Assembly (NCBI RefSeq): GCF_031081985.1
Contig: NZ_JARWSK010000005.1
Coordinates: forward strand, 124,001-188,000
Direction of reading: 5' to 3'
Source of the DNA: Komagataeibacter xylinus
Lineage (GTDB): Bacteria; Pseudomonadota; Alphaproteobacteria; Acetobacterales; Acetobacteraceae
DNA: 64,000 bases
Shown: positions 58,050 to 63,293 of the stretch, one piece after another
How the letters are laid out: each line of letters begins with the position of its first letter
Position numbering within the stretch: position 1 is the first letter of the stretch
Translations under genes and position numbers: made by a program
Notes under the pieces: generated by a model
What the model saw: the letters and a program-made list of their open reading frames with translations, nothing else
What the model was told of the DNA's origin: nothing
The model's database searches: none

Positions 58050-58955
58050 TCAGGCAGCGATATCAAGTATATTCTGATCTGCATAGAAGGCTCGTTCGGC
58101 TTCGGCGGGCGGCCTGTAGCCGATTGGCGCCAGCAGGCGTCGGTTATTGTACCAGTCCACCCATCTGAGGGTTTCCCATTCGACCTGCACCATGGATTTC
58201 CATGGCCCCAGATGATGGATGACCTCGGCCTTGTATAAACCGTTGATGGTCTCAGCCAGTGCATTGTCGTAGCTATCACCAATCGTGCCGACCGAGGCGT
58301 CGATGTCAGCCAGCGCCAGGCGTTCGGTATATCGGATCGACAGGTATTGTGATCCACGGTCCGAATGATGGATCAGCGCCTCGTTTCCCGCGGGCTTTCG
58401 TTGCCAGATGGCCTGTTCAAGGGCATCGAGCACGAACTGGGTGGTCATGGACGTCGAGACTTTCCAGCCCACGATCCTGCGGGCGAACACATCAATGACG
58501 AACGCCACATAGACCATGCCATTCCAGGTCTGGACATAGGTAAAGTCCGAGACCCAGAGCTGGTTGGGGGCCTCAGCCCGGAACTGCCGGTTGCCCCTGT
58601 CATCGGGACAGGGGCGCGCCGTATCCGGACGGGTCGTGATGACCTTCCGGCCCCGGATTACACCCTTCAGACCCATCTGCCGCATCAGGCGCTCAACAGT
58701 GCAGCGCGCAACCTGCCGCCCTTCACGCTTCAGGCTGTGCCAGACCTTACGTGCACCATAAACAGCACGATTGTCCTGCCAGATCCGACGGATATGTTCC
58801 ATCAACTCCCTATCGCGCCGCGCACGCGGGCTGACCCTGACCGGATCTCTTGCTATGGCCGCCTGCTGGTAAAACGTGGACGGGGCAATCGGCAGAACGC
58901 GACAGATTGGCTCGCTCCCGTAATCGGCACGGTAGGCTTCAATAAACGCGATCAT
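58050..58955 (-). CDS. IS3-family transposase OrfB
   Basis: A 301-residue DDE transposase. An N-terminal HTH_21-like part (RDRELMEHIRRIWQDNRAVY, GARKVWHSLKREGRQVARCT) precedes the catalytic core: Asp in LWVSDFTYVQTWNGM, Asp in HHSDRGSQYLS and Glu in GDSYDNALAETINGLYK. Its ATG overlaps the OrfA stop in an AAATGA junction, so it may be made by coupling or by ribosomal frameshift as an OrfAB fusion. All three acidic residues are present, so the enzyme may be active. Confidence 0.93.
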   Translation of the reverse strand: MIAFIEAYRADYGSEPICRVLPIAPSTFYQQAAIARDPVRVSPRARRDRELMEHIRRIWQDNRAVYGARKVWHSLKREGRQVARCTVERLMRQMGLKGVIRGRKVITTRPDTARPCPDDRGNRQFRAEAPNQLWVSDFTYVQTWNGMVYVAFVIDVFARRIVGWKVSTSMTTQFVLDALEQAIWQRKPAGNEALIHHSDRGSQYLSIRYTERLALADIDASVGTIGDSYDNALAETINGLYKAEVIHHLGPWKSMVQVEWETLRWVDWYNNRRLLAPIGYRPPAEAERAFYADQNILDIAA

Positions 58956-59281
58956 TTGTGAAACGGGCGGTCGAGCTCCGCCAGAGCAAAATAAGCCGAG
59001 GCCTTCTTAAGGATCTCATTGGCCTGACGCAGTTCACGGACCTCACGCTCCAGCGCCTTGATCCGTGCTGTCTCGGCCGTGGTCGGCCCCGGTTGCGCCC
59101 CAGCGTCCCGTCGGGCCTGCTTCCACCAGTCGTGCAGGCTGTCGCCCGAGCAGCCCAGCTTGCCACCAATCTCGCGACAGGCCGCCGATAGGCTTGCGTA
59201 ATCCGATCGATGCTCGTCCAGAAGGCGCACAGCGCGCTCACGGAACTCAGGCGAATAACGCGATGTCTTCTTCTCTGCCAT
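58952..59281 (-). CDS. IS3-family OrfA
   Basis: About 109 residues. SRYSPEFRERAVRLLDEHRS begins the helix-turn-helix that binds the IS ends; KALEREVRELRQANEILKKA is the leucine-zipper dimerisation helix. ATG 59281 has GGAAG at suitable distance; 59290 is an alternative start. It overlaps orfB by four bases. Confidence 0.92.
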   Translation of the reverse strand: MAEKKTSRYSPEFRERAVRLLDEHRSDYASLSAACREIGGKLGCSGDSLHDWWKQARRDAGAQPGPTTAETARIKALEREVRELRQANEILKKASAYFALAELDRPFHK

Positions 59282-59331
59282 AGGGCTCATCTTCCGAGAG
59301 TTTTACTCTCCGGTAAACCCGGGGCAGTTCA

Positions 59332-60041
59332 CCACCGATCCCGTTATCGGTCGGCTGGTCGATCGCGGCCTCGACGATGAACTGCGCGGCACGGCCTATG
59401 CGGTGATCGACGGGATTGATGGTAGCACGCACCATGTCCGCCTGCCGCACCTCGAAGCCGCCGGTGACGGGGCAGTCGGTTCCATCGTGGAACTGCGGCA
59501 TTTTACCGACAAACAGGGACGTAACCGTGGCGCGCTGGCCGTGCGCTCGGACGTCACTTTGGAGCGGCAGGTGACGGCGGATGGCGCGACTTGGCTCGAT
59601 CGGCAGGTCATTGCGCGAGAGCCTCTTGCCCTGGCGTCTATCGGGTTCGGCGCTGAGGTGCGCGAGGCGATGGAAAAACGCTCGGATCATCTCGTGGAGC
59701 AGGGGCTGGCCAGCCGCGACGGCGGAAGCATCCGCTACGCCCGGAACCTGATCGCCACGCTGCGCCAGCGCGAGCTGGACGCGCTGGGCCGGAGCCTCAC
59801 CGGTAAGTCGGGGATGCCGTTCCGGCGGAGCGGGGAAGGCGATCCCGTCACGGGCACCTACCGCCAGCGTTTCAATCTGACGTCAGGCCGGTTCACGATG
59901 ATCGATGACGGGCTGGGCTTCGAGTTGGTGCCATGGTCGCCGTCGCTGGAAAAGCAGCGAGGGCGGGAGGTGTCGGGAATCATGCGCGGCGATGGGGGGA
60001 TCGACTGGTCATTCGCGCGCAAGCGGGGGGTGGGTCTATGA
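59332..60041 (+). pseudogene. Conjugative relaxase remnant (DUF3363-type C-terminus), cut by the IS
   Basis: The frame is open from the first base after the IS (FTTDPVIGRLVDRGLDDELR, GTAYAVIDGIDGSTHHVRLP) to a stop at 60041. GSIVELRHFTDKQGRNRGAL, ATWLDRQVIAREPLALASIG and YARNLIATLRQRELDALGRS correspond to the C-terminal part of VirD2-like relaxases with a DUF3363 region. The N-terminal relaxase domain with its catalytic Tyr and His motif is missing and is not on the other side of the IS. The element therefore cannot start transfer with this gene. Short internal starts exist but would make only a fragment. Confidence 0.8.
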
Positions 60042-60247: not shown

Positions 60248-61180
60248 TTAAAAGATGACCGCCCGATGAATCGGATGATCGGCAGGAAAGGTATTGTTAA
60301 AAGCTGCCAGTAGCTCTGTTCCAAAACGATAACCTTCATCCTTGAGTTCACGAAATTTCTGGTCTGTGTCTCGATTTTCCTTCGAGATTGTCTCAAGATG
60401 GCTGCGCATTTCCTTGTTATCGATTTGACTGAGAAACCTATTATAGCTTGTTACAAGTTCTTGCGTATTTGCCTTGCCGCAAATATGCTCAATGCGTTTG
60501 AGTGGCGGTATGGAGAAAAGACTTTCGAGAGTTTCGATTTTTTCTCTCTGATTTCGGTTGTGGGTCATGGCGACGCTAAACAGGCCGCTCGCGTAGATAA
60601 GTTTGCGAGAAAAGACGAGCTTAATATTTCGGATTGCCCATGGCTTGCCAGACTCCTGGGTCTTAAAAGCGTAATCGACGGTTATCGTTCTCCAATATCG
60701 AATGATATCATTTAGGAGATATTGAGCAATGTGGCGGTCATCTCGCGTTTCAGATACATACCGTTCAATAATATCGCGCCTGATACTCTTGAATTCCGTA
60801 TCATTTGTCAAATACTCGCCTTCAAGTAGGTAAAGCATTCTTCTTGTAATGGTCTGATTTGTGTCCTTGTCGCCGCCAAAGTTGTTAAGTAGATCATTTA
60901 TTTGAATAAGAGATTCAAACGCACCGCCTGCGGCTGGTGGCTTTGTGACGACTTTAGCTATTGCGTCCTTGGCTCGCGTAAACCATTCAGATTCGCTACG
61001 ATCGAGAGCTGGGACGAGGACATAGAAGTCTAAGTCTGACCCGACAGTGGCTTCGCGTCGAGCATACGACCCGCAGGTTAAGGCGATTGCCTCGGGAGGA
61101 ATAATAGACTTGAGAGATTCACGTAGACGCTCAAGAGCGGTGTTGGATGTTTCAGTAGTCTTGTCGTAGGTCGAGATCAT
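60248..61180 (-). CDS. Nucleotidyltransferase-fold protein (pol beta superfamily) in an HD-NTase module
   Basis: A 310-residue protein. Residues about 35-60, ALTCGSYARREATVGSDLDF and YVLVP, match the nucleotidyltransferase motif GS(x)nDhDh with two metal-binding Asp. A mainly helical remainder follows (IAQYLLNDIIRYWRTITVDY, RNIKLVFSRKLIYASGLFSV), as in DUF294/GlnD-like and KNTase-type proteins. The gene is far more AT-rich than the surrounding conjugation genes. It overlaps the upstream HD gene by 29 bases, so both act together. It could modify a protein, a tRNA or a small nucleotide; its target is unknown. I do not recognise it as a named defence family. Confidence 0.78.
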   Translation of the reverse strand: MISTYDKTTETSNTALERLRESLKSIIPPEAIALTCGSYARREATVGSDLDFYVLVPALDRSESEWFTRAKDAIAKVVTKPPAAGGAFESLIQINDLLNNFGGDKDTNQTITRRMLYLLEGEYLTNDTEFKSIRRDIIERYVSETRDDRHIAQYLLNDIIRYWRTITVDYAFKTQESGKPWAIRNIKLVFSRKLIYASGLFSVAMTHNRNQREKIETLESLFSIPPLKRIEHICGKANTQELVTSYNRFLSQIDNKEMRSHLETISKENRDTDQKFRELKDEGYRFGTELLAAFNNTFPADHPIHRAVIF

Positions 61181-62276
61181 GAAAAAAATCCGGAATCGAA
61201 GGAGAGGATAGGTCGTTCGCAGTGGTAGGACTGGGCGCCTTCATCACCCTGTTCTCTTTTCTCTGCGTATACCGATATTTATCGTCACGTAAGTAAAAAT
61301 CAAAACGATGATCAACCGAGAACAATCTCGCTTTGTAGGGTATTTCCTGTGTCGAAGACCGAGCCGCGCGCGAATGCAATTTGAATTTCAGGAGTAACAT
61401 TTTTAGATCAGGTAGTTTTTTGAATATCTGTTTTTCTGTTAAAAAATAATCATCTCGATTAAGACATGAAATGTTGTTCAAGACGAGAGATTCACAAAGG
61501 TAGTCAGACGCTACGCCGAATTCCGACCGCACGATGAAACGATATGCGTGATCCTTGTATTCCCAGAACCTATCGACAATCTGCATGTCAGTAGATGTAG
61601 AGCGATTATAAGATGCAAGGACGACCTTTTCTGGACTAAGGGCGTTTGCATGGGGTTTGACGTAAGTCCAAGATCTCAATATTCCTTCGATCGTATCGAA
61701 GTTGATGGGACCATTGAAAAAACCATCAAAACGCTCAGTCTGCCCATTAGCTATGGAAAGCACCTCTTCGGGGTCAAGACCGTGTGATAACAGGATGTCT
61801 ATGATCTCGCGACCGTAGGGCGACCGTCCGAGGATTATGTCGGCTCCAGCGATGTGATGGTCAATTCCGAAAGAGCGTTTAAAAGCGTTTTCAAGAGTAT
61901 GAGAGAGGGGTGCATGGCCAATGTCATGGAGAAGCGCTGCAACCCATGCGAGGCGCCCCTCTTTGGGAGCCAGTCCTTTAACATCTGCGTAGAGTTTGGC
62001 AAGCTTAGCGACGCCGAGGCTATGCTGCAGGCGAGTGTAGCGCCTATTACCAGGAGCACCGTTGGGATAACGTACGAGAAAATAATCTATGCCGCCGAGA
62101 AAGCGGATATCTGCAAGGCGCCTGAATGCAGATGTCGACACGAGTTCGTAAAATAATGAATCGGAAACGGTATCGCGTGTTGGGACCGATTGTAAGTAAT
62201 CAAAAGATTCTGGTCTTTCTCCATTCGTCACTTCGGTCGATGACTCGAAGCTAAGTGGTATGTCGAGGTTCACCAA
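61152..62276 (-). CDS. HD-domain phosphohydrolase (SAMHD1/dGTPase-like)
   Basis: A 374-residue protein with a complete HD metal site: His in YTRLQHSLGVAKLAKLYADV, HD in ALLHDIGHAPLSHTLENAF, and Asp in INFDTIEGILRSW. A conserved Arg-rich loop (SAFRRLADIRFLGGIDYFLV) precedes it, as in dNTP triphosphohydrolases of the SAMHD1/Dgt group. The start is TTG 62276 or GTG 62273 after AAAGGA. AT-rich like the overlapping nucleotidyltransferase gene. The pair may deplete or process nucleotides during phage or plasmid entry; that role is inference from the protein types and from location on a mobile element. Confidence 0.82.
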   Translation of the reverse strand: MVNLDIPLSFESSTEVTNGERPESFDYLQSVPTRDTVSDSLFYELVSTSAFRRLADIRFLGGIDYFLVRYPNGAPGNRRYTRLQHSLGVAKLAKLYADVKGLAPKEGRLAWVAALLHDIGHAPLSHTLENAFKRSFGIDHHIAGADIILGRSPYGREIIDILLSHGLDPEEVLSIANGQTERFDGFFNGPINFDTIEGILRSWTYVKPHANALSPEKVVLASYNRSTSTDMQIVDRFWEYKDHAYRFIVRSEFGVASDYLCESLVLNNISCLNRDDYFLTEKQIFKKLPDLKMLLLKFKLHSRAARSSTQEIPYKARLFSVDHRFDFYLRDDKYRYTQRKENRVMKAPSPTTANDLSSPSIPDFFHDLDLRQDY

Positions 62277-62480: not shown

Positions 62481-62792
62481 TCATGCCCTGCTGACCAGTT
62501 TGTCCAGCGCCCTTATGATCTTATCCTGATCGCGTTCGGCCAGGACGCCGACGGCGGTTCCAAGCTGCGCGGCGGGGACAGTCGCCAGGTCGAACGGGTT
62601 GGCGAAGACGTCCTCTCCCTCAACATGGAGATGCGGCGTCAGTGGGTGATCCGGCGGGGCACTGCCGGACCGTCTAACGAGCGGCATGACGACGCGGCCC
62701 ACGCTGCGCTCCAAGCGATTGCTCTGGACCTGGACGACGAACGGGATATCCCGGTTACGGCCGGGGTTTCGGTAGATCGCGAATTGCGGCAT
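62481..62792 (-). CDS. ccdB: CcdB-family toxin
   Basis: A 103-residue toxin of usual length. MPQFAIYRNPGRNRDIPFVV, VQSNRLERSVGRVVMPLVRR, LTPHLHVEGEDVFANPFDLA and a C-terminal helix ALDKLV correspond to CcdB, which traps DNA gyrase. It follows ccdA by four bases. The C-terminus (DKLVSRA) replaces the terminal WGI tripeptide of F-plasmid CcdB, common in chromosomal and element-borne relatives; potency is uncertain. Probably stabilises the element. Confidence 0.9.
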   Translation of the reverse strand: MPQFAIYRNPGRNRDIPFVVQVQSNRLERSVGRVVMPLVRRSGSAPPDHPLTPHLHVEGEDVFANPFDLATVPAAQLGTAVGVLAERDQDKIIRALDKLVSRA

Positions 62793-62796
62793 CGGA

Positions 62797-63066
62797 TCAG
62801 AGCATCGAGAATTCGTCGCTCAGGAAGCCGTGCCGTGTGTGCAGATCGTTCACAGCGTCGATCACACCGTCGAGCCTACGCTGTTCGTCCTCGCGCTGCT
62901 GACGCGCGGATTGCAGGTAGTCGCCCAGCAGGATTTCGACCGTCGCCGAGAGGTTAGGCGTCACTTCCCGGACCTGCGCCAGCAGATCGGTGTTGAGCGA
63001 CAGATTGACCGGGCGGCGGGGGGCGCTTCGGTCATAGGAAACGCCGGGGCTGGTGCGGCTGGGCAT
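62797..63066 (-). CDS. ccdA: CcdA-family antitoxin
   Basis: An 89-residue antitoxin. RPVNLSLNTDLLAQVREVTP, then NLSATVEILLGDYLQSARQQ, is the ribbon-helix-helix dimer region that also represses the operon; the C-terminal tail (RRLDGVIDAVNDLHTRHGFL, SDEF) binds CcdB. ATG 63066 follows AAGGAG. Gene order ccdA-ccdB is standard. It diverges from traG across about 170 bases. Confidence 0.88.
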   Translation of the reverse strand: MPSRTSPGVSYDRSAPRRPVNLSLNTDLLAQVREVTPNLSATVEILLGDYLQSARQQREDEQRRLDGVIDAVNDLHTRHGFLSDEFSML

Positions 63067-63293
63067 AATCCGACTCCTTATGCGCATACCGTGCGCATGA
63101 AATAAGGATGCCGACGCCTGACCGCAACGCGCAAGTATTTTTTCGCTCCTGCCCGCTCCGGTACGATGGGTGCCGGATCATGCTTGCACGCCGAAAAATG
63201 CCGGTTCTTCGCTGTCTCCCATGACAAGGGGAGGGATCAATGGACCAGCCGGGAACGCGCATCCAGTGAGGGCAGGCGCTGCTGGTCCTGTCC

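Follow-up and report, generated by a model that had tools for sequence, protein, structure and literature searches.

Among the papers listed by a literature search on defence combinations of an HD phosphohydrolase with a nucleotidyltransferase (NTase), Clover was the sole system recognised as matching. In Clover the HD deoxyguanosine triphosphatase (dGTPase) CloA is activated by deoxythymidine triphosphate (dTTP) and restrained by p3diT from CloB (PMC12265719). In SAMHD1, an HD-domain hydrolase of deoxynucleoside triphosphates (dNTPs), Leu150, Tyr315 and Tyr374 pack the base and the sugar, the 3'-OH is bound by Gln149 and Asp319, the triphosphate is bound by Arg164, Lys312 and Arg366, and substituents at the 3' position are barred by Tyr315 (PMC7045340). 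Here we describe a pair of overlapping genes, predicted to encode an HD phosphohydrolase and an NTase, in a stretch of 64,000 nucleotides from Komagataeibacter xylinus (contig NZ_JARWSK010000005.1, positions 124,001 to 188,000; hereafter the window). A previous sequence-only reading of this DNA had proposed that the pair matched no named system; Clover does provide a precedent for the layout of an HD dNTPase beside an NTase (PMC12265719), and the proposal stood in so far as neither gene fits the Clover families.

The features of the pair, in window coordinates, are as follows.

61152..62276, minus strand: HD phosphohydrolase gene, 374 amino acids (aa); from the open reading frame (ORF), Pfam HD (7e-14) and the family profile
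60248..61180, minus strand: NTase gene, 310 aa, ATG start; from the ORF and its match to the PADLOC model PDC-M70A
61152..61180, minus strand: overlap of the two genes, 29 bases, with an overlap of 29 bases also in Acetobacter papayae (L007)
61923..61928, minus strand: H117-D118 codons (HD motif), invariant in 10/10 HD members; from alignment, coordinates by arithmetic
61683..61697, minus strand: D194-G198, the metal Asp and, after it, T195 and G198 in place of the R and Y of EF1143-type dNTPases; from alignment, coordinates by arithmetic
61028..61072, minus strand: NTase signature, G37-S38 to D49/D51 (S48-D49-L50-D51); from alignment, coordinates by arithmetic
60863..60865, minus strand: D106, invariant in 14/14 NTases, candidate third carboxylate; coordinates by arithmetic

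The two AT-rich, overlapping ORFs reported earlier were thus recovered, with a GC content of 0.466 for the HD gene and 0.452 for the NTase gene versus 0.604 for the window. Both active sites were also found as described, the HD site with H85, H117-D118, H126, E129 and D194, and the NTase site with G37-S38 and S48-D49-L50-D51 and a Pfam match to NTP_transf_2 at 8e-5. The HD gene opens with TTG at 62276 and has GTG as its next codon; the spacing to an upstream AAAGGA suggests GTG at 62273 as an alternative start. Comparison with A. papayae gave dN/dS values of 0.154 (HD) and 0.124 (NTase), and both genes are thus under purifying selection.

The window pair resembles Clover in that an HD phosphohydrolase and an NTase share a two-gene operon, and in its catalytic H, HD, H..E pattern (PMC12265719), and the HD gene comes first, as at the Phaeobacter locus. 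However, the window HD protein has 374 aa in comparison to 473 for CloA. The dTTP site of CloA includes residues such as S418, N420, T449 and Y452 in the C-terminal bundle (PMC12265719); judged by length and alignment, the window protein, which ends at residue 374, would have no alignable counterpart of this region. The CloA chains 9p8s-9p8v gave no match to the HD family profile (A4) at E ≤ 10, and an hhalign comparison with a Phaeobacter CloA relative, which is 50% identical to a Salmonella CloA fragment, covered 64 columns with a probability of 41%. For CloB the comparison used a single inferred protein (P0001, 259 aa), assigned by its motif and its position beside the CloA relative; no match to it was obtained in Pfam, PADLOC or NCBIfam, and the NTase profile (A1) aligned with it at a probability of 8%, outside the catalytic motif. 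Unlike the window NTase, this Phaeobacter protein has a GG..RD ... SDVD motif. Membership in Clover, our first guess, was therefore rejected, as the HD protein is not of the Dgt/CloA family and the NTase has no meaningful CloB match. Clover was also sought beside four plasmid-borne Dgt relatives (H22, H23, H24 and H26), where nothing was obtained. Control of the HD enzyme by its NTase has been demonstrated in Clover (PMC12265719), and for the window pair it may be proposed by analogy.

The other close comparison is PDC-M70, a PADLOC candidate on which our literature search found no paper. The window NTase matches its model PDC-M70A at E = 1e-61 over residues 6-294, and an NTase from Mesorhizobium fits the same model far better (1e-146). 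The partner in PDC-M70 is, however, a TIM barrel (M70B), whereas that in the window is the HD protein, which gave no PDC-M70B match up to E = 1. Membership in PDC-M70 was rejected because the partner differs. Judged by these profiles, the pair is distinct from both Clover and PDC-M70, with a Clover-like layout built from different protein families.

Mobile and resident copies of the pair

A scan of the genome collection with the NTase returned two loci, one in A. papayae and one in Sphingomonas ginsenosidimutans (L008). Both A. papayae proteins are 95% identical to those of the window and have the same ccdBA-traG neighbours, and both Sphingomonas proteins are 71% identical, with an integrase-like ORF (labelled by eye) nearby; because of these two copies we regard the pair as more than a chance arrangement. 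Using tblastn with the NTase, four further relatives were found on plasmids, from E. coli, Mesorhizobium, Sinorhizobium and Rhizobium. On the 4.5-kb E. coli plasmid the HD ORF spans the record start and directly precedes the NTase, both being annotated in RefSeq; by DNA similarity this is the sole carrier among 5426 E. coli genomes. The other three have no HD gene in the flanking sequence read, 4 kb to either side. At the Sphingomonas locus a histidine phosphatase gene (L008:3116-3709, minus strand) lies divergently upstream of the pair.

For the distribution in the class we used a sample of 385 genomes, scoring the best few candidates per genome (4 HD, 5 NTase) with cut-offs of E ≤ 1e-10 for the NTase profile and E ≤ 1e-22 for the HD profile, the latter strict enough to leave out generic HD proteins, for example that of L046 (3e-17). 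The NTase was found in 6/385 genomes and the HD protein in 5/385, and all five HD genomes were among those six; counted by genus, the figures were 4/277 and 3/277. The probability of this overlap by chance is 9e-11 for genomes and 1e-6 for genera, values that apply to genomes that are non-independent and to profiles partly built from them. Similarly, both proteins occurred in the same 4 of 398 genomes of a phylum sample, in which the NTase was called by the PDC-M70A model (E ≤ 1e-15). Within the window's own taxonomic family the pair is rare, the NTase being found in 1 of 100 genomes, namely the window's own.

In two genera every genome searched had both genes. For g142, the genus to which G345 belongs, this amounts to 29/29 genomes, with the genes on a single contig and the same strand and the NTase downstream in 28 of them (gap 25 to 8101 bases) and on different contigs in one; in g337 the genes are present in 3/3 genomes and overlap by 4 bases. 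In several genomes these resident copies are on contigs >1 Mb, and the resident spans, some with intervening genes, have a GC content within 0.05 of their surroundings. The mobile pairs, on the other hand, are GC-poor versus their surroundings: 0.460 versus 0.609 in the window, 0.463 versus 0.635 in A. papayae, 0.504 versus 0.658 in Sphingomonas and 0.318 versus 0.495 on the E. coli plasmid, the last value without the stretch of the HD gene that precedes the start of the record. Trees of the HD and NTase proteins of the same 10 loci agree in their main groups, with the window, A. papayae, Sphingomonas and the E. coli plasmid set against the two resident genera. Comparison across genomes shows that the two genes are a conserved and coupled module, with some copies on mobile DNA and others that are resident. 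The earlier suggestion that the two genes act together holds as far as an evolutionary unit is concerned, given the co-occurrence, the 29/29 in g142 and the agreeing tree groups; a coupling of their products through a nucleotide may be proposed.

The place of the pair in the window was compared with that in related elements. Its surroundings were as previously described, with a relaxase remnant on one side and a traG reading on the other.

59403..60041, plus strand: C-terminal remnant of an RlxS-type relaxase, one flank of the slot (DUF3363 2e-60, RlxS 3e-53)
62481..62792, minus strand: ccdB-type toxin gene, bordering the cargo slot (CcdB 5e-21)
62797..63087, minus strand: ccdA-type antitoxin gene, on the same border of the slot (CcdA 3e-13)

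When ccdBA-traG DNA (1520 bases) was searched against 259 genomes of the window's taxonomic family, 61 were matched, and seven places beyond the window's own were near full length at 90-91%. All seven loci were fetched and about 8 kb of each was read; the cargo of five of them (10 proteins) was scanned. Neither the HD protein nor the NTase was detected by tblastn in these stretches. Locus L078 (G1013:C3:129500-137474) encodes a cyclase (3e-144), an E1-E2 protein (7e-206), a JAB protein (4e-66) and a SAVED-HNH effector (3e-161), predicted components of a type II cyclic oligonucleotide-based anti-phage signalling system (CBASS). In L075 we found a kinase (PD-T4-6/mad6 models, 1e-39) alongside a type I specificity subunit (2e-51), and L072 (1853-5429, plus strand) has a DEAD helicase (SngC 3e-32) next to a HATPase protein (best PADLOC model DrmA, 7e-11), possibly a two-gene system. 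The relaxase end is present in four of the seven stretches and is not within the fetched stretch in three; the CBASS and restriction-type loci are among these three, for which the slot is confirmed from its ccdB side alone. We conclude from these gene contents that related conjugation-type elements have a hotspot for cargo on the ccdB side of the slot, often but not always occupied by predicted defence genes, in line with the mobile cargo proposed in the sequence-only reading. With its CBASS, restriction-type and Fic cargo, the slot would be worth mining for new systems.

Taken together, we favour, with a probability of about 0.45, the reading that the two genes form a functional module in which the NTase would make or transfer a nucleotide destined for its HD partner, the pair acting on mobile elements as phage- or plasmid-defence cargo and having become a resident function in two alphaproteobacterial lineages. 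The mobile copies look like defence cargo because the window's slot holds defence genes in some relatives, and it is from this context that we infer an anti-phage role for them; a resident role is argued too, by the presence in every sampled g142 genome. If true, the pairing of an HD phosphohydrolase with an NTase arose at least two times from different families, which would make Clover a single example of a broader design. With a version present across a whole genus, it could also be asked if housekeeping circuits derive from immune modules or immune modules from housekeeping circuits.

Several observations weigh against this reading. The strongest evidence against a role in defence alone comes from the resident copies: presence in 29/29 g142 genomes, in most with unrelated genes in between, is unusual for a defence system. 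Homologues living apart in housekeeping contexts had been named beforehand as a point that would count against the proposal, and a resident setting is indeed what we found in every g142 (29/29) and g337 (3/3) genome; yet the two genes were found there together. Four NTase relatives have no HD gene in the stretches read and have other neighbour proteins instead. With these four added, the unrooted NTase tree places them next to the NTase of the E. coli plasmid (support 0.79) and does not show the HD-linked NTases as a single clade. The NTase was absent from a phage search and a viral-contig scan, in which the HD protein was not searched. In the slot itself, L074 has a Fic protein gene; L077 (5392-6381, plus strand) has a lone AT-rich protein of 329 aa (GC 0.42) with no match in Pfam, PADLOC or NCBIfam; and L073 and L076, judged by eye, have arsenic-type and hydrolase genes of non-defence look.

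A rival reading is a resident metabolic or repair pair, the enzymes of which would act sequentially on a modified nucleotide or a nucleotide-linked metabolite, with the mobile copies as stray cargo. Besides the fixed presence of both genes in g142 and g337 at a GC content close to that of the surroundings, this would explain the NTase relative of Rhizobium BT04 (L006:3839-5534, plus strand), which neighbours a histidine phosphatase and stands among glycosyltransferase and transporter genes. However, the four mobile copies are GC-poor versus their surroundings and CBASS and other defence genes occupy the window's slot in some relatives, and we consider this reading unlikely.

The nucleotidyltransferase and its partners

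Across 14 NTases the residues G37, S38, R41, E43, D49, D51, D106, E120, N157, D158 and R161 are invariant. D96 was dropped as the third carboxylate, as D, E, A or N is found at this position among the 14 sequences. The window NTase gave no SMODS or DncV-like match at E ≤ 0.1 and no PADLOC Cyclase match at E ≤ 1, and identity as a CBASS CD-NTase was set aside on these results. A score of 18.3 bits was obtained for ANT(4') (cut-off 350). The predicted structure, with a predicted local distance difference test (pLDDT) score of 56.0 from a 3-sequence input, had no meaningful match in Foldseek.

The relatives differ in what stands beside them. In Mesorhizobium the NTase neighbour is a TIM barrel matching PDC-M70B at 2e-105, and in G607 (L031:4044-5665, minus strand) the neighbour of a divergent PDC-M70A-like NTase is an overlapping protein of 204 aa that has no Pfam or PADLOC match. 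Together with the histidine phosphatase of Rhizobium and the HD protein of the window, these neighbourhoods indicate a family in which the NTase is kept and the partners vary. Such a pattern is also known among the signal synthases of defence systems.

A type VII toxin-antitoxin-like pair, in which the HD protein would be a toxin silenced by the attachment of nucleotides, as MntA does on HepT (PMC7641770), is likewise improbable in our view. The order of two overlapping genes with the putative toxin first, an NTase of the NTP_transf_2 class as in MntA/HepT, and the adjacent ccdBA genes, toxin-antitoxin genes carried in the same region, would agree with it. However, the MntA model reached 16.2 bits, far below its cut-off of 60, and assignment to type VII by this model was rejected; moreover, the partner is an HD protein and not HEPN, the g142 genes are separated by up to 8.1 kb, and the NTase family also has TIM barrel and histidine phosphatase neighbours.

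The HD protein and its substrate pocket

Profile A4 matched EF1143 (2o6i) at 2e-20, 2hek at 1e-15 and SAMHD1 at ~1e-12; for the Shewanella anti-phage dGTPase 9p8w the value was 4e-4 and for E. coli Dgt E = 1. Among the 10 aligned HD members, which represent five lineages and hence are not 10 independent cases, H85, H117, D118, H121, H126, E129, H140 and D194 are invariant. D194 aligns to the EF1143 metal ligand D183, assuming a 24-residue offset of the 2o6i chain. The HD protein is thus assigned by profile and alignment to the SAMHD1/EF1143 class, the closest solved relatives, with predicted metal and catalytic residues intact.

The residues that read the dNTP are different. Probable counterparts in human SAMHD1 numbering were assigned by the HD motif pattern and the SAMHD1 sequence. 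The positions equivalent to Q149, K312, Y315 and D319 are F, T, G and S/T/A/C in 10/10 members, whereas four HD controls (Paenibacillus, Arthrobacter, Listeria and the second HD protein of G524) have Q in 4/4, R in three and Q in one, Y in three and F in one, and D in 4/4, and in the alignments with EF1143 and 2hek both of these show Q, R, Y and D. The equivalent of Y374, where the alignment is less certain, is V/I in the family and Y (three) or F (one) in the controls. Catalysis looks kept and dNTP recognition looks lost in this family, which, unlike the EF1143/SAMHD1 dNTPases, is paired with an NTase. As the pocket residues for the sugar, the 3'-OH and part of the triphosphate are absent, canonical dNTPase activity is unlikely. 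The dNTP-degrading HD enzyme of the sequence-only reading is accordingly retained as a SAMHD1/EF1143-like profile and doubtful as an activity. That the protein is an ordinary SAMHD1-like dNTPase, depriving phage of dNTPs under Clover-like regulation by the NTase, is very improbable, for in spite of the EF1143 and SAMHD1 profile matches, the intact metal and catalytic residues and weak top Foldseek matches to SAMHD1 and EF1143 (E 4.5e-3 or worse), the residues at Q149, K312, Y315, D319 and probably Y374 are replaced in all 10 members and largely kept in the controls.

Such a pocket would better suit a nucleotide substituted at its 3' position, which the NTase might make. Within the favoured reading of a nucleotide-coupled module two options can be considered: the NTase may make a private 3'-extended nucleotide that the HD protein hydrolyses, or its product may restrain the HD protein until infection disturbs the pool, following a Clover-like logic. 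The fullest version, which we put forward as a tentative and rather doubtful extension, is that the HD protein has been re-tooled for 3'-substituted nucleotides and hydrolyses, or is governed by, the private 3'-extended product of the NTase, the two forming a synthase-hydrolase or synthase-effector module for a nucleotide signal, of an origin independent of Clover, that would serve some bacteria as mobile immunity and others as a fixed circuit. To be set against the pocket comparison is the poor predicted structure of the HD protein (pLDDT 46.6, 3-sequence input), which leaves the pocket reading alignment-based. The family would provide a sharp test, as a SAMHD1-class enzyme in which the readers of the dNTP 3'-OH are all replaced should act on non-dNTPs.

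Genes next to the slot

The ccdB/ccdA pair (62481-63087, minus strand), which had gone unmentioned in the earlier description, sits between the HD gene and the traG reading. The traG label beyond ccdBA is taken from that description, and the A. papayae counterpart is a 691-aa ORF. At the start of the traG reading (window 63240-63269) there is an early in-frame stop relative to A. papayae, and given this stop traG may have a later start or be damaged. On the relaxase side, the corresponding ORF of A. papayae has 540 aa and almost reaches the end of the locus. In the window, IS3-type transposase ORFs (58050-59290, minus strand; IS3 label from plasmid annotations) directly adjoin the relaxase remnant.

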